From a virus, in IMG/VR virus record IMGVR_UViG_3300025264_000007, positions 16,616 through 80,615 of that record: a DNA stretch of 64,000 nt, one strand, 5' to 3'. Position 1 is the first letter of the stretch; every line of letters begins with the position of its first letter. The notes below the pieces were generated by a model. It saw only the letters and a list, made by a program, of their open reading frames with translations. It did no database searches and was not told where the DNA came from. Below, piece by piece: positions 12,971 to 44,265 of the stretch. The position numbers and the translations under genes are program-made.

Positions 12971-13272
12971 TCATCGGGGGTCTCAAATTCAGGTAAGGGA
13001 GCAACAGTTCCGGTGTGGTTATGAAGCATATTAGCAAATTGGTAAAGTTGAGCGCCCATTTCGGCTGCAAGTTCAGCCGTCTCGCTCATCATCTCCGGAT
13101 CGAGCACCATCTCTGTTGCTCGTTTTGCGCCCCCATCGGCTACTTCTTCGATCAGACGTTTCATCTGAACCGACAGGTCGCCATACATGCTAGGGAGATC
13201 CAGCGCGTCTTTAGTGACTTGAGGAAGGATTTCCTCGTAAATAAGTTGATAGTTGATGATGGGGTAAGTCAT
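12967..13272 (-). CDS. Helical protein of unknown function
   Basis: 101 residues, mostly predicted helix ('SVQMKRLIEEVADGGAKRAT', 'ETAELAAEMGAQLYQFANML'), acidic tail. Coupled by ATGA overlaps on both sides. Not recognised. Confidence 0.45.
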   Translation of the reverse strand: MTYPIINYQLIYEEILPQVTKDALDLPSMYGDLSVQMKRLIEEVADGGAKRATEMVLDPEMMSETAELAAEMGAQLYQFANMLHNHTGTVAPLPEFETPDE

Positions 13273-14258
13273 GTGGTTTGACCTTTCTTTGTTGCGCGGC
13301 GTTCATCCTCAAGGTGTTGGGCAGCCGCCGCGGGGAAATCTGGGGGGATAGGGAGTGAGGCGTGAAATATACGGCGAAGGGGGTCATCTGTGTTGACGGA
13401 ATGCTCCGCTTTGGGTTGGGTACCGGCGGCGCGCGCGGCATCCTCCACCTTTAATGTGCTGTATGCCCCAAAATATGACCTTGACATACACTTCAGGTTG
13501 TGAAGGTCGTCGGTATCGGCATGCGTGGGGTCGTCGGTATCGGCAGGCGTGGCGCAGTCGTGAGTCTGCTGGAGGCTTTCGATGAGCTTCTCGGTTTTTT
13601 CTTTTTCGCCGTTGTGGAGTTCAATCTCGATGTATCCCACCCTAGACAAATCTTTGCCGGTGAGAAACTCGTATTCAGCGCCCTCGCAATCTACCTTAAG
13701 GTAGTCAATGAACCCATTGGGACTGGCCGCTAGAATATCTTCAATAGAAATCGTCTTTACTTCTTCGTATTCGTCGTCGAAAGGTTTTTCTGCGGAAGAA
13801 TAGGCGTCGCCCGAAAAGTTGCCGTTCTGTAAGTTTTTTTGCATGTAAACTGTTTGCCCTGACGTGGCTCCCACTGCTAGGTTATGCAGTTGAACTCGTT
13901 GGGGCGCTACGACCTGGCGTGCAACGTTGTCACTCAAGCGCCTAAAAGTTTCTTTGCACGGCTCGTAAGCTATTACATTGGTAGCTATTCGTGAAGCTAA
14001 ATAAGTAAATGCGCCGACGTTTGCTCCCACATCCACAATGCACATGGGGCGGGGGCAAAGTGGGAATATGGGCAGACTTCCCCAGCCGATGAGGTACTCT
14101 GTGAGCATCTTTTCATCGTTGTGGGGATGGGAACTGGCCATTTGATTTAGGTTTACCATGCCATATGAGGGCCAGCTATAAGCTACTGCTACCTCTCTGA
14201 CGCGGTCGTAAAACCACTCGTCTTTCTGTCCTTGCGTAGCATCTTCAAACTCTAACAT
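13269..14258 (-). CDS. FkbM-type SAM-dependent methyltransferase
   Basis: 329 residues. 'IVDVGANVGAFTYLAS' (about 74-89) is the AdoMet motif and 'DYLKVDCEGAEYEFL' the FkbM signature; 'YIEIELHN' follows. FkbM enzymes methylate hydroxyls of sugars or other small groups, so this could modify host surface glycan or a phage product. The C-terminal 100 residues are an extension with an internal 'ADTDDPTHADTDD' repeat and a Pro/Ala-rich tail. AGGAG precedes the ATG. Confidence 0.8.
   Translation of the reverse strand: MLEFEDATQGQKDEWFYDRVREVAVAYSWPSYGMVNLNQMASSHPHNDEKMLTEYLIGWGSLPIFPLCPRPMCIVDVGANVGAFTYLASRIATNVIAYEPCKETFRRLSDNVARQVVAPQRVQLHNLAVGATSGQTVYMQKNLQNGNFSGDAYSSAEKPFDDEYEEVKTISIEDILAASPNGFIDYLKVDCEGAEYEFLTGKDLSRVGYIEIELHNGEKEKTEKLIESLQQTHDCATPADTDDPTHADTDDLHNLKCMSRSYFGAYSTLKVEDAARAAGTQPKAEHSVNTDDPLRRIFHASLPIPPDFPAAAAQHLEDERRATKKGQTT
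13506..13553 (-). repeat. Two 24-bp tandem repeat units inside FkbM gene
   Basis: Two nearly identical 24-nt units (13506-13529 and 13530-13553, differing at two positions) encode the Asp/Thr repeat in the C-terminal extension. In-frame copy-number change would be tolerated. Confidence 0.75.
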
Positions 14259-14319: not shown

Positions 14320-14565
14320 TTAATATCCCACATAAGGTGAGATTTCTGCCGGCAATACCCACCATAATATATTGCGCAGGAACTGCACTTGGTAGTGATG
14401 GCGGTGATTCCCGTCGGGTCCGCTGACGATCACTCCCACGGTTCCTTGTGTGATGGTTTGGTTGTCTTCATCCCCATCGATAGGAACGCTCGAATAAATA
14501 TTGGCGGCTGCTTCCACGAGCGCACCCGGATAATAGCATGACGATTCAGTCGCTTTAGTCGGCAT
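14320..14565 (-). CDS. SH3/KOW-like small protein, divergent GDLV relative
   Basis: 81 residues: 'YYPGALVEAAANIY' at the position of GDLV, 'QGTVGVIVSGPDG' as central strand, 'HHYQVQFLRNILWWVLPAEI' as later strands. Same topology as the array proteins but with a 20-residue insert. Overlaps the upstream peptidase gene by 11 nt. Confidence 0.45.
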   Translation of the reverse strand: MPTKATESSCYYPGALVEAAANIYSSVPIDGDEDNQTITQGTVGVIVSGPDGNHRHHYQVQFLRNILWWVLPAEISPYVGY

Positions 14566-15033
14566 ATTGGCGGAGAACTTCGTAAAGTCGTTGGGGTGTT
14601 AGATCGGAATAGTGGTAGAGGTTGTCAACTGCGCCGGCAAGACGCAAGGCGTAGGCAATCCACTCAGAACAATACCAGCGACCTGTGCGCTTGATGTGAA
14701 AGGGCGTGAACTTTGATAAGATCATGCCTGCCCAATCATAGCCGTCGCCTTTGGTGTCGTGGTAGAATAGCTCAATGGTGTTGACCTGCTCAAGCGTAAC
14801 GGGTATACAGATAATATCATAGTCTTCCATATTTTCTTCAGCCTCTAGCCAGATCTTTCGAACGCCTTCCGCGCTAAAGGGGAGAATGCTTATTGATTTG
14901 CCGTCAGGCATCATAAGTTCAGCATGAGAATAGATGGATTGGGTAGTCTTTCGGACAAGCCGGTTGTGCCACTCTCCCTCGCCCTTGTAGAACGCTACGC
15001 AAAGTTGAAGTGGTTCTGTCGGCTTTACCCCAT
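14555..15033 (-). CDS. Permuted papain-like (C92/YiiX-type) peptidase, frame broken near start
   Basis: From 14914 downward an ATG-started frame encodes 119 residues with 'GRWYCSEWIAYALRLAG', the Cys region of permuted papain-like enzymes. The matching His region lies further upstream in the same frame ('LQLCVAFYKGEGEWHNRLVR', then 'QSIYSHAELM'), but no ATG/GTG/TTG precedes it before a stop. An ATG at 15031-15033 is one frame off: ATG GGG TAA. Adding one base in the GGGG run (15028-15031) or a -1 slip at GGG before the TAA would join it to the full protein. So either the sequence has a lost G, the gene is broken, or a programmed frameshift is used. Family members cleave amide or acyl bonds, often in cell-wall or lipid substrates. 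Confidence 0.6.
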
Positions 15034-15156
15034 AATAATATAACTATATCGGCAGGTAAGGAAATGAAAAAAATTTCGGCAAGTCTTTTTGGTGCTGAGA
15101 ATTAACCTCAATCCCACGATGTTCTTCGCCAAATCTTGTGACGTCACCCGGATCAT
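15025..15156 (-). CDS. 43-residue frame ending at the GGGG-TAA site
   Basis: 'MIRVTSQDLAKNIVGLRLIL' and onward. It starts with an ATGA overlap to the upstream gene and ends ATG GGG TAA exactly where the peptidase frame takes over. It may be the N-terminal part of the peptidase, joined by a -1 frameshift, or a separate short gene. Confidence 0.35.
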   Translation of the reverse strand: MIRVTSQDLAKNIVGLRLILSTKKTCRNFFHFLTCRYSYIIMG

Positions 15157-16948: not shown

Positions 16949-17479
16949 TCATTTGAGCGTCAACCATTCGGGAAACCTAATTTTAAAAAAAGCATAAGTT
17001 CTGTTTACCTTCTTACGATATGCCTGAATAGCTGCCACATTCTGGGAGCGCCGCCAACCGGGGCCGCCATTATAACACGCGGCTAGGTTTTTCCCCTGGC
17101 AAGTCTTGTAGGTTCGTAAATTAGTTAGCACGCGAGTTGCTGCTCTTGTGGCATGAGTAATGTTGTGCATGTCTCGGCGAAAATCGGCGAAGGAGGCGTA
17201 TCCCCACTGTCGCTTCCCCCACCAATACCAGTTGATTTGAAATACTCCCACATCCCCCGTTGCCGATGCCGCATCCGCTTGAAGACGTGACTCTGCCCAA
17301 GCGATGGAGATCAAGAAGTGAGGGTCGGCACCGCGCCGATTGGCTTCCCTTATTATATCTTCGGCGACGGCTAGCTGTGCGGGAGTATAGTAGGCGGGTG
17401 CCCCCAGATAGAAAAAGTGCTCCGCTTCGGTGAGAGAAAAATCCCAACCCACCAGCAAACTGATCAGCACCCCCATCAT
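16949..17479 (-). CDS. Lytic transglycosylase (SLT domain), exported endolysin candidate
   Basis: 176 residues. A short hydrophobic N-terminus ('MMGVLISLLVGWDF') could be a signal or anchor. The soluble lytic transglycosylase core shows 'AWAESRLQ' with catalytic Glu63, 'GDVGVFQI' (75-82) and 'AACYNGG' (133-139). It cleaves peptidoglycan between MurNAc and GlcNAc, and is a candidate lysis enzyme or virion-entry enzyme. Neighbouring small membrane proteins (16065-16592) could be holin or spanin partners, though this is an inference. Confidence 0.85.
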   Translation of the reverse strand: MMGVLISLLVGWDFSLTEAEHFFYLGAPAYYTPAQLAVAEDIIREANRRGADPHFLISIAWAESRLQADAASATGDVGVFQINWYWWGKRQWGYASFADFRRDMHNITHATRAATRVLTNLRTYKTCQGKNLAACYNGGPGWRRSQNVAAIQAYRKKVNRTYAFFKIRFPEWLTLK

Positions 17480-18078
17480 GCGAAATCAATCTCCACTTCT
17501 ACCGTAATGCTTAACTGCGGCGTACGCAGATGGTTGACAATTCCATGTTTCTTTGCTTCCTCGGCGTCCATGAACCAGTCGGCATGTTTTTTATTGAAAA
17601 CCTTTTTCTTAAAGTAGTCGTCTTTCTTTCCACAATTACGAGCCATCATAGTAAATATCTTCTCATCCAGCCTTTCGGCTTCTTTTACATCGGCTTTTAG
17701 CTCTTCTATCTTTCCCCAGCCTCCGCTGCTCACGTCGTGAATCATGACGGTGGCATTAGGGTCGGCAAACCTCAGACCTTGTTCTCCAAAAGTTAAAAGA
17801 ACGGCTCCGCAAGACATAGCTTTACCTTCTACAATGGTGGCAACGGGTAAGTCAGCAGCCTGAATAGCCCCTATCATTGACATTAAAGCATAAACTTGTC
17901 CCCCATACGAGTCAATGATGACCGGGATAACTTTTTGCCCGGTGTTGTGGGCGAGCGCCATCTTGTGCGCAAACTCCGTAGCCGATTTTTCATTGAACTT
18001 GTTTACTCGAATAATAACGGGTTGCTTCCGCAACTCGCACTCTTTGATGAGTGGTGAGATTTCTGACTTCCAGATCAT
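17476..18078 (-). CDS. ClpP-like serine protease
   Basis: 200 residues with the ClpP fold: 'IIDSYGGQVYALMSMIGAI', Ser89 in 'KAMSCGAVLL', His114 in 'VMIHDVSSGG' and probable Asp167 in 'HADWFMDAEEA'. Length matches ClpP. It is far from the head genes, so a prohead protease is less likely; it may join host Clp ATPases or process phage proteins. With FtsH elsewhere in the window it gives the phage two proteases. Confidence 0.85.
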   Translation of the reverse strand: MIWKSEISPLIKECELRKQPVIIRVNKFNEKSATEFAHKMALAHNTGQKVIPVIIDSYGGQVYALMSMIGAIQAADLPVATIVEGKAMSCGAVLLTFGEQGLRFADPNATVMIHDVSSGGWGKIEELKADVKEAERLDEKIFTMMARNCGKKDDYFKKKVFNKKHADWFMDAEEAKKHGIVNHLRTPQLSITVEVEIDFA

Positions 18079-21566: not shown

Positions 21567-23671
<2,105 letters not shown>

Positions 23672-40295: not shown

Positions 40296-40827
40296 TGCCG
40301 TCGTCTACCTCATCGCCATGAACATCCCAGCCCTTAGTGGTCTGGCGAGCAAATAGTTCCAGCTTTGCCTGGTCCGGAAACATTTCTTCAATTCTCTTTC
40401 TTACTTCCCCTGGCTTGGTGCTGTGTTTTTGGCGCATCTTCGATACCAGTTGTCGGATGTTCCGTGCCCCACGCGGTTGCGGGATCTTACCTCGCTTACC
40501 GATAAGGCACAGTTCGCACTGACTCATAGTATAAAAACCGGGATTCACTTTTTGTTTATCCCAAACAAAACCGACGGTCGCCCAGCTAAACCCCCACGCC
40601 TTCATGAGTTCAATGGCCTGGTCGAGGTGAGGATTGGTTGTCCACAAAAAAAGGAGACAATCCTCGTCGCAATGACGTGTGATATCGAGGCGTTTTAAAT
40701 CCTTAAGTTTGAGGCACTCATAATGACGCAGCGCGCCCCCGCTGTCGGGGCCGCCTTTACCCGTGTGCTGCAACTGCCCTTTGTAATCCCACGGGGGATC
40801 TGCGTAGATAATCTGATATTTTTTCAA
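40273..40827 (-). CDS. MT-A70-type N6-adenine methyltransferase
   Basis: 184 residues. 'IIYADPPWDYKG' has the MT-A70 DPPW motif (10-13); 'LFLWTTNPHLDQAIELMKAW', 'VWDKQK' and 'CELCLIGKRGK' follow the family order, and 'LELFARQTTKGWDVHGDE' is the closing block. It would methylate adenine in DNA, or possibly RNA. Fourth methyltransferase in the window. Overlaps DnaE by 4 nt. Confidence 0.88.
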   Translation of the reverse strand: MKKYQIIYADPPWDYKGQLQHTGKGGPDSGGALRHYECLKLKDLKRLDITRHCDEDCLLFLWTTNPHLDQAIELMKAWGFSWATVGFVWDKQKVNPGFYTMSQCELCLIGKRGKIPQPRGARNIRQLVSKMRQKHSTKPGEVRKRIEEMFPDQAKLELFARQTTKGWDVHGDEVDDGIDMAFHD

Positions 40828-43800
40828 GTCAACCTCCTAAAGGTTCTGCGGAGACTGCGAGTGCTAAATCCCCATTTATCACTGTGTTCTAGGTTGGCGA
40901 CGTAAACTTTATTCAAGGAAATCCTGTCGTTGTCTTTGACGCCCCAGCATCTAATGCGGGCATCAAAGGCGTTGCTGTCAGTCGTGTGGATAATCCAATA
41001 CGCTGCGCCGTTCTTTGTCTTCTTTACTTTTACTTCCCTCGGAATGAACCAGACCAGTTGAAGGTCGGGGTCATACTCGCTGATAGGTGGGCAGCCTCGT
41101 CCCATTAGATTGTCCTGAATCTCTTGTGGCATAATCTCGTGGATCGGAAAGATGCCAGTGAGAGAGGCGAAGTGTTCCAGCTTCTCTTCATCCGTGAAGT
41201 CTCCTTCGGGAGCGTAGAGTTCAATGTTATCCTCAAGGTTTTTCTCCTTGCGTGGCCGGTCAACTGCTACCGCTGACCAAAAGTGTCTGAGTCCTGTGAA
41301 CCTGTCATCCATCAACTCGTCAAGAGCTTTACTCCTGACCAGCACATCCAAGGCTTTCTTGTTGAGTTTGGAGTAGGTAATGTTCTCATGGAAAAGGAAC
41401 TCCTCAATCGTATTGAAGGGTCGGTTGTTGATAATCTGGTCTAGGGCGCTGTCGCCCAGACCTTTGATGCCGGCAAGCGGTTGAATTAATGTTTTGCCGT
41501 CGTCTCCAATTTCCCAGACTCGTCCTGATCTATTAATGCTGGGTGGCTCTATCTCAAACCCAAAGGCTTTGGCGGTGTTGATAGCGCCAGCCTTCTTGTC
41601 CTCTGGTTCCTTGTCCAAGAACGCAGCCATCCACTCAACGGGATAATAATAACTAAGCCACGCACACTGGAATGACACCGCTCCGTAAGATACAGCGTGT
41701 GACAAGTTGAAGCCATATCCGGAGAAGTATTCCATGTTGGCCCACTGTTTATCGGCCACCTGTTGGGATAGCCCATGCTCGGCACAACCTGCTACGAACT
41801 TTTTATAAATCTTGTCTCTTACTTTATCTTTTCCTGTCCCCTTTTTCGTCAGAACTTTACGGAGGAGGTTGCCCTCGTCCAGAGAAATATCCTTGCCGAG
41901 CTTGTGAGCTAGCATCGCCAACTGTTCTTGGAAGACCAGTAGTCCGTGAGTCTCGCCCAAAACTTCTTTAATGATTGGGTGGTCGTAATAAACTTGGCTC
42001 GGGTTGGTCTTGTTGGCAACATAGAGACTATGCGCCTTAGCGGATAAAGGTCCCGGTCTGAAGATAGCTGTGACCGCTGCGAAGTCTAGTAACGATGTGG
42101 GCTCTGCTTCTTGGCAGAACCGTTGTGCTCCGCCGTTGGTCATCTGGAAGATGCCAGCCCACTTGCCTTTGTGAAAAACCTCTCGCCAGACTTCTTGGTT
42201 GTCAAAATCAATTGCGTCGGGATGGAGATGAGCATTATAATAATCTCTGACCTGTTCAAATGTCGGCTCTTCAATCCCTTCGTGTCGTTTTAATATATGT
42301 CGGATGGCTCCCGAAATCATACGGAGAGTTGATAGTCCGAGCAGGTCGAATTTAATGAAGCCGAGTGGCTCAAGGTGGCGAACGTTCTGGCCTTCACTCC
42401 ACGGGGTCTGGATGACTCCGCCGGAATTGATGAGCGGCATATGTTTGTCAAGGTCCTCTGCTACAACCACGCCGCCAGCGTGTCGTGATATGCTCCGCAT
42501 ATTGCCGAACAGATTATCAACGTGAGTCTCAATATGAGGATACTTTTGGAAGAAGTCTTGGAGGGTTTCACTGTATTCTTTTACCTCCGTAAATGTTGGG
42601 GTATAGACGCCAGCGATTTGACCGTGCGCTTTCTTGGCTAGAGGTGTGGCTTCGCTCATCATAACACCAGTGACCTTGTTGACTTCCATAAACGGAATGT
42701 CATAGAACTTGCCAATGTCTTTGATGAGAGAGCGGAGTTGAAGCGTATTGAAGTTGCTGATGGGGACGACCGTTGTCTTTCCCCAGTCTTCTGCTAGTTG
42801 CTCCTTCAAAGCCATTGGCTCCTCAACATCAAAGTCAATGTCCGGGTAGCCTTTGCCGCCCTTGGTTAAGAACCTCTCAAACTGTAGGTCGTATTTGATG
42901 GGGTCAATCTGAGTAATGTCTAGAACATATGACAGGAGGGAGCCAGCGGCTGAACCTCGTCCAAGTCCTACCAACATTTCCTCCTGGGCTTTATCACTGA
43001 TAGCTTTCATCGTCAGAAAATACTGGGCGAACCCTCGGTCCTTGATGATTCCTAGTTCATATTTAAGACGCTCCACATACTCGGGGTCTGTGATATTCTT
43101 TTCTTTCATTCCCGCCAAGGCGTCTTGGGTCAGAGCTTGGATGGCTGTCTTGCCTTTGGGCACCACGAATTCTGGGAGGCGTACTTCACTGCCCGGAAGG
43201 AAATCTTCACAGCGATCAAAAGCGATGTGATGGGTGCGTTCAATGCTGTCACGGATGGCGGTATCATCATAACTGATACGGTGCTTGGCTGAATATCGTT
43301 TGTAACTCTCCCACATCTGGTCCCCATTTTTGGGATAGAGTTCGTAGCCGACTTCATCAACCGTCTCGGGAAGACCGTTGTCGCCGTCAGCCCACGCTGG
43401 AACTTTGCCGCCCCAGCCGATGCGCTTATACATCTCTCGGTCTTTCCAAAGTTCTGGTCGGGGGTAGTGACTGTCGGCAGTGCTGATAATCTCTACGCCC
43501 ATTTCCATACAGGCTTGGATAATATAATTGTTGCCTTCGTGCTGTTCCTTGATATCGTTCCATTGAACCTCTCCGTAGAAGCGGTCGCCAAAGATTTCTT
43601 TGAACTGGGCGATTGTGTCCCGCATCGCTGAAAGAACGTGGTCTGGGCTCTTGTCTCTGTTCTTCCAGAAGTCTGCGAACAAAGGACCAGACATACAGGC
43701 GCTGCTGATGATGAGCCCCTCATTGTATTTGTCCAGCATCTCAAAATCCATACGAGGATAACGATAAAAGTTTTCAGGTTGGTAGCTGTTGGATACCAAC

Positions 43801-44237
43801 TGGAAAAGATTGTTGAGACCTGTCTGGTTCTGCGCAACCATCACAAGGTGGTTGCGGCTATTGAGAGGATTAAATTTCTTTTGTCGGTCCTCATCTTCAA
43901 TGACCATTCCATACTCTTCTTTTTTTTGTTTCTTCTTGGAGTTGGCCTTGTGTTCTTCATACATTGTGCGCCACTTACGATGGGACTTGATGAAGTAGGA
44001 TTCACATCCGTAGATGGCTCGGAAGTCTTTGCCGTCTGCCTTCATTTGCTTCAAGTGTTCCACCTGAAATGACAAGCCGTTCATGTGACCGTGGTCGGTG
44101 AGAGCGTGGGCATTCATCCCGTTCTCGTAGGCGAAATCCATATGTTCGCCTGGCATCCCCAATCCGTCAAAGGGGGAGAGCCCAGAGTGTGCATGAAGAC
44201 CCACAAATGGGATCTTGCTTACAATCCGTTCAGACAT
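40824..44237 (-). CDS. dnaE: DNA polymerase III alpha subunit (DnaE-type)
   Basis: 1137 residues from 'MSERIVSKIPFVGLHAHSGL'; a TTG six bases earlier is less likely since AAAGG fits the ATG. N-terminal PHP domain ('LHAHSGLSPFDGL', 'ALTDHGH'), palm with 'GRGSAAGSLLSYVLDIT' and catalytic 'PDIDFDVEEP', fingers ('YGAVSFQCAWLSYYYP'), helix-hairpin region ('IKGLGDSALDQIINN') and a C-terminal OB fold ('PREVKVKKTKNGAAYWIIH'). C-family replicases are uncommon in T4-like phages, which use B-family gp43. No clamp or clamp loader lies in the window. Own promoter just downstream of a terminator. Confidence 0.95.
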   Translation of the reverse strand: MSERIVSKIPFVGLHAHSGLSPFDGLGMPGEHMDFAYENGMNAHALTDHGHMNGLSFQVEHLKQMKADGKDFRAIYGCESYFIKSHRKWRTMYEEHKANSKKKQKKEEYGMVIEDEDRQKKFNPLNSRNHLVMVAQNQTGLNNLFQLVSNSYQPENFYRYPRMDFEMLDKYNEGLIISSACMSGPLFADFWKNRDKSPDHVLSAMRDTIAQFKEIFGDRFYGEVQWNDIKEQHEGNNYIIQACMEMGVEIISTADSHYPRPELWKDREMYKRIGWGGKVPAWADGDNGLPETVDEVGYELYPKNGDQMWESYKRYSAKHRISYDDTAIRDSIERTHHIAFDRCEDFLPGSEVRLPEFVVPKGKTAIQALTQDALAGMKEKNITDPEYVERLKYELGIIKDRGFAQYFLTMKAISDKAQEEMLVGLGRGSAAGSLLSYVLDITQIDPIKYDLQFERFLTKGGKGYPDIDFDVEEPMALKEQLAEDWGKTTVVPISNFNTLQLRSLIKDIGKFYDIPFMEVNKVTGVMMSEATPLAKKAHGQIAGVYTPTFTEVKEYSETLQDFFQKYPHIETHVDNLFGNMRSISRHAGGVVVAEDLDKHMPLINSGGVIQTPWSEGQNVRHLEPLGFIKFDLLGLSTLRMISGAIRHILKRHEGIEEPTFEQVRDYYNAHLHPDAIDFDNQEVWREVFHKGKWAGIFQMTNGGAQRFCQEAEPTSLLDFAAVTAIFRPGPLSAKAHSLYVANKTNPSQVYYDHPIIKEVLGETHGLLVFQEQLAMLAHKLGKDISLDEGNLLRKVLTKKGTGKDKVRDKIYKKFVAGCAEHGLSQQVADKQWANMEYFSGYGFNLSHAVSYGAVSFQCAWLSYYYPVEWMAAFLDKEPEDKKAGAINTAKAFGFEIEPPSINRSGRVWEIGDDGKTLIQPLAGIKGLGDSALDQIINNRPFNTIEEFLFHENITYSKLNKKALDVLVRSKALDELMDDRFTGLRHFWSAVAVDRPRKEKNLEDNIELYAPEGDFTDEEKLEHFASLTGIFPIHEIMPQEIQDNLMGRGCPPISEYDPDLQLVWFIPREVKVKKTKNGAAYWIIHTTDSNAFDARIRCWGVKDNDRISLNKVYVANLEHSDKWGFSTRSLRRTFRRLT

Positions 44238-44265
44238 TAGCAACCTTTCTGTTTAGTATGCTTCT

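Follow-up and report, generated by a model that had tools for sequence, protein, structure and literature searches.

The viral papain-like peptidase gene described here carries a one-base discontinuity of its reading frame at codon 2, which is genuine and conserved; what looks like an error is a feature kept by evolution, and probably a programmed slip of the frame at that codon. The gene lies on the minus strand of the window, by which we mean the whole stretch of 64,000 nucleotides of the IMG/VR record IMGVR_UViG_3300025264_000007 that was analysed. Read directly, positions 15033-15025 are ATG GGG TAA, and the GTA at 15028 opens the peptidase frame, which ends at the stop at 14555 and stands in -1 relative to the start block, a relation that is well supported (Table 1). 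In the window, this frame contains no ATG, GTG or TTG ahead of 14914. The original prediction had placed a one-base -1 discontinuity at GGGG-TAA and the His region upstream of the first in-frame ATG, and both points were borne out: the same layout recurs in independent contigs and is required for the conserved N-terminus, and the ATG at 14914 is past the catalytic His.

Table 1. Positions of the features at the peptidase start, in window coordinates
Feature	Position	Strand	Remark
Upstream 0-frame ORF from ATGA	15025..15156	-	window-specific
Stem with a T run after it, which may terminate the upstream gene	15066..15137	-	z -1.97
Hexamer TATAGT of the -10-like element	15048-15043	-	
ATAGTTAT, conserved -10-like element	15040..15047	-	ATARTTAW kept across the slip clade and the GTG-starting sister clade
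TAG shutting the peptidase frame on its upstream side	15044..15046	-	
Transcription start as predicted, some 3 nt ahead of the AUG	15036..15036	-	predicted from 7 nt after the -10; purine in 12/12 after the invariant T
Start, Gly codon and stop, ATG GGG TAA	15025..15033	-	invariant in 12/12 slip-clade sequences; ATGGGGTAR in 4/5 sister sequences
G run inside ATG GGG TAA	15031-15028	-	
Reading frame of the peptidase (GTA AAG ... TAA), with a permuted papain fold of C92/YiiX-like type	14555..15028	-	contains His35 and Cys120, as numbered in the translated frame
Earliest canonical ATG in the peptidase frame, within the core, past the catalytic His	14912..14914	-	

Scanning IMG/VR gave 78 loci with relatives of the peptidase. 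The twelve closest contigs (L001-L012, 69-84% protein identity) provide 11 distinct sequences, L005 and L006 being identical around the slip site, and together with the window they make up the slip-clade alignment of 12 distinct sequences. All twelve contigs present ATGGGGTAA and, after it, the peptidase in the -1 frame. No canonical start before the conserved core is common to these 12 contigs; a lone TTG, six codons in and ahead of the core, exists in L004 and is absent from the other members. A second, profile-based IMG/VR scan added no close members, the window protein has no isolate-phage relatives at E 1e-5, and prokaryote genomes returned one distant match. In the tree (11 slip-clade rows, the near-copies L006 and L009 being left out), the window and its close relatives form a single group with support of 100/99, whose sister group consists of five sequences (L013, L014, L018, L019 and L020).

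The nine columns of the block, from 0 to +8 counted from the A of ATG, are identical in the 12 distinct sequences, as is the T at -1 directly before them, while over the 27 columns that follow the commonest base is found in just 4 to 9 of 12. The stop after GGG is TAA throughout the slip clade and TAA or TAG in the four sister sequences which have the block, so that a stop directly follows GGG in all 16 sequences carrying it. Whereas the distance from the -10-like box to the ATG shifts by single bases, the length from ATGGGG to the core differs by 3 nt at most; judging from the tree, these changes arose in two separate lineages (L010 and L012 group with L004, which has no such change). One G lost in a single genome would look alike, and the original prediction had kept a G lost in assembly as an alternative; the conserved layout refutes it, the same four G being found in 12 contigs (11 distinct sequences) which come from many metagenomes, with agreement of L005 and L006 around the site. 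Strong purifying selection and the invariance of the catalytic His and Cys in 46 relatives likewise stand against a decayed gene, and we give error or decay next to no chance.

The N-terminal core itself shows that translation has to begin above the first canonical ATG. In the slip-clade alignment, the 29-codon stretch that begins with the conserved Cys and takes in the His region has a pN/pS of 0.17, and 111 of the 162 minority bases fall on third positions (30 and 21 on the other two). AlphaFold places a beta strand (7-14), a helix (20-29) and the His-bearing strand in the part of the core that precedes 14914. This selection, which includes the catalytic His, means that translation must start upstream; an internal start at 14914, which would remove the His, was rejected. 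Homologues starting cleanly at that ATG, the observation named beforehand as fatal to the frame change, were not found, their conserved core lying upstream of it. The six codons between the block and the core have a pN/pS of 0.88, without coding signature, a pattern that fits a free tail and is not proof of translation. Gene callers will shorten or miss genes built in this way; here, the loss comes to 38 residues of the -1 frame, the catalytic His among them.

The protein (PHROG 1128) belongs to a small family of marine phage enzymes. Foldseek matched it with a probability of 1.00 to 3kw0 (E 1.3e-4) and 2if6 (E 5.8e-4), with a TM of about 0.5, and the permuted papain-like fold of Peptidase C92 (PF05708) is thus present; the His-then-Cys order is present as well, His35 in SHAE and Cys120 in YCSE being invariant in the 46 relatives. 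The enzyme therefore resembles the YiiX-YaeF proteins of these two structures in fold and in its conserved His then Cys, but it is a short viral form which stays below the Pfam curated cut-off: the best E was 0.0059 among the 4 matching of 46 members, and the window protein gave no match. For this reason we call it C92-like; by profile it is no C92 member. A mini-ORF of three codons, ATG NNN AGA TGA, overlaps the peptidase ATG in a different branch of the family (L193, L197, L198 and L199).

As to how ribosomes reach this frame, entry through upstream coding sequence was considered and rejected. The original prediction had them coming from an upstream frame coupled through the ATGA at 15153-15156; that frame is present in the window, but it is not supported as the normal entry, since the 0 frame above the ATG has no start codon in the 11 other distinct sequences, where the ATG is the sole start. 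A coupled ORF from 15156 is thus not conserved, and the slip would take place at codon 2 of a start-proximal unit rather than where a 43-codon ORF ends. In several contigs the TAG of the upstream gene is in the peptidase frame; in-frame readthrough of it was also rejected, because the spacing of 5-7 nt breaks the frame in L002 and L004. A terminator-like site is found in L008 at the place corresponding to window 15066..15137.

The conserved sequence just before the block is promoter-like. ATARTTAW precedes the ATG by 5, 6 or 7 nt wherever the ATG is present and is kept even beside differing upstream genes, and the tmRNA genes of the same phages have TTGACA, 17 nt, and then the same -10 (TATAGT/TATAAC). 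At the peptidase element, the -35 matches are weak only; by score the -10-like box is not separable from another AT-rich register that lies 6 nt beyond it, the first register being the one conserved in sequence. Because the conserved box predicts a start about 3 nt before the AUG and the same -10 stands at the tmRNA promoters, the peptidase mRNA is probably almost leaderless at AUG 15033. A messenger starting a few bases before its AUG has no Shine-Dalgarno (SD) site, and none was found there (0.3 kcal/mol, the median for genes being -5.9), nor ahead of 14914 (0.4 kcal/mol). A short inverted repeat, ATAGT-N6-ACTAT, ends inside the ATG in L001, L003-L009, L013 and L018 and is imperfect in the window (15047-15032); it could be an operator.

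We propose that AUG 15033 is the start codon of the peptidase, on an mRNA whose 5' end would probably lie a few bases ahead. The ribosome would decode AUG and GGG, and UAA would then enter the A site; the Gly-tRNA would move back by one base on the G run, with full GGG-to-GGG re-pairing in which the first G is taken from the AUG, and GUA would come next, so that the complete peptidase is made, beginning Met-Gly-Val-Lys-Pro-... Any ribosome failing to slip would stop or drop off after two codons, and the amount of enzyme would be limited by the slip. Taken as a whole (initiation at AUG 15033 on a near-leaderless mRNA, tRNA-Gly slipping by -1 on G-GGG while UAA occupies the A site, limited yield), this account has in our judgement about an even chance of being right. 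The sequence is slippery in the sense of programmed -1 ribosomal frameshifting, since in G GGG UAA the Gly codon re-pairs in phase, and the frame relation and the site are conserved without alternative start in 12/12 distinct slip-clade sequences. The suggestion that a -1 slip of Gly-tRNA on GGGG suits programmed frameshifting thus holds for the layout; that the ribosome slips rather than RNA polymerase is what we infer. No stimulator was found: there is no conserved fold signal 9-92 nt downstream (z mostly about 0), no SD site before the AUG, and ahead of the slip site no room for an upstream SD stimulator. We therefore do not file the case as proven programmed -1 ribosomal frameshifting. According to a reference cited in PMC8012679, drop-off occurs at NGG codons near the beginning of the coding region, and a low yield is therefore expected from a GGG just past the start. 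Against the proposal also stands an E. coli assay in which G_GG.G tetramers were not clearly shifty, their signal being ascribed to SD-like initiation (PMC4066793). No phage release factor gene was found in 16 records. A more specific view, that a sole start, one codon and a stop on a near-leaderless mRNA, expressed only by the -1 slip of the first elongator tRNA, form a selected expression valve, perhaps tuned by phage tRNA-Gly(UCC) and tmRNA, is tentative, and we lean against it.

The main rival is slippage of RNA polymerase, which would add one G on the run just past initiation, so that part of the mRNA would read AUG GGG GUA in frame for a ribosome behaving normally. With the -10-like box so near, the G run would occupy about +6 to +9 of the transcript, or +3 to +6 should transcription begin at the A, and short runs suffice during initiation at pyrG, codBA and pyrBI; by the predicted start, however, the run comes later than in those cases, the start itself is only predicted, and the stop kept after GGG in 16/16 sequences with the block is left unexplained. 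We regard this rival as unlikely. The same invariant stop, together with the invariant AUG, is also unaccounted for if ribosomes, aided by an SD-like GGGGU, begin in the peptidase frame itself on a codon that is not a usual start, be it GGG, GUA or one close behind them. That GGGGU pairs with the anti-SD at -6.0 kcal/mol, that the sister-clade GTG has GGGGU at SD distance, and that G_GG.G acted as a weak SD in the E. coli assay (PMC4066793) all speak for such a start, but between the block and the core no AUA, AUU, CUG, GUG or UUG is common to the slip clade, and GUA departs from AUG in two of its three bases and is not preceded by an SD (1.0 kcal/mol). For want of a shared codon, a non-canonical start after GGGGU was rejected, and we consider direct initiation of this kind improbable.

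The sister group bears on a further possibility and on the age of the block. Four of its five sequences (L013, L014, L018 and L020) keep ATGGGGTAR, but have a clean GTG 13 nt after the A of ATG, in another frame and 4 nt past the stop. There, AUG GGG UAR may serve as a ribosome-loading mini-ORF followed by restart on the GTG; for the slip clade, whose 12 sequences have no restart codon in common in the peptidase frame ahead of the core, restart from such a mini-ORF is very doubtful. Since these sisters hold the block despite their GTG start, the block also has, or had, another role, and in the fifth, L019, it is replaced by AAAGGAAG, which resembles an ordinary ribosome-binding site. Both facts indicate that the block probably predates the -1 layout; it may have originated as a promoter start region, an SD-like GGGGU or a mini-ORF. 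That the motif is a general promoter or repeat was rejected: it has just one match in the 80.6 kb record, and its IMG/VR matches outside the peptidase family share no downstream gene, as judged by eye.

The chemistry of the proposed slip is known, and its place, codon 2, is unusual. In prfB, the gene of RF2, a +1 slip takes place at about codon 26 with an internal SD as stimulator. The peptidase resembles this shifty stop in that a P-site tRNA slips while a stop occupies the A site, that this happens near the beginning of the gene, and that the post-slip product is the functional one, but differs by a -1 slip at codon 2, by UAA where prfB uses UGA, and by having no stimulator that we could find. 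The bar minigene of phage lambda, AUG AUA UAA, is likewise a two-codon start-codon-stop unit in a phage, whereas the peptidase unit heads a conserved enzyme frame in the -1 register. Reiterative transcription at the start sites of pyrG, codBA and pyrBI regulates pyrimidine-controlled genes and also relies on a short homopolymer close to the transcription start; an added G at the peptidase would, unlike there, set the reading frame. Every programmed frameshift that we are able to name occurs in established elongation, usually with a stimulator, and the literature searched for start-proximal cases held nothing matching. If true, a conserved codon-2 slip without stimulator would be recoding at the boundary between initiation and elongation, and it would test how tightly ribosomes keep their frame as elongation begins.

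A phage-encoded tmRNA exists in eight contigs of this phage group (L240-L247, e.g. L237:295-618), with the tags ANDDFQLAQAA and ANDDFQLALAA in the two contigs called by ARAGORN, and 7 of the 8 have a TTGACA promoter and the 5' end GGGGGTAA. Clusters of tRNA genes are found at L226:234-309 (genome G000, outside the window) and in L228, L230, L231 and L232; tRNA-Gly(TCC), which could read the GGG codon, is present in five slip-clade clusters, not in all. Finally, the window encodes phage-borne GroEL (21567-23153), a Clp-type protease (17476-18078), DNA polymerase III alpha (40824-44243) and an FkbM methyltransferase (13269-14258).
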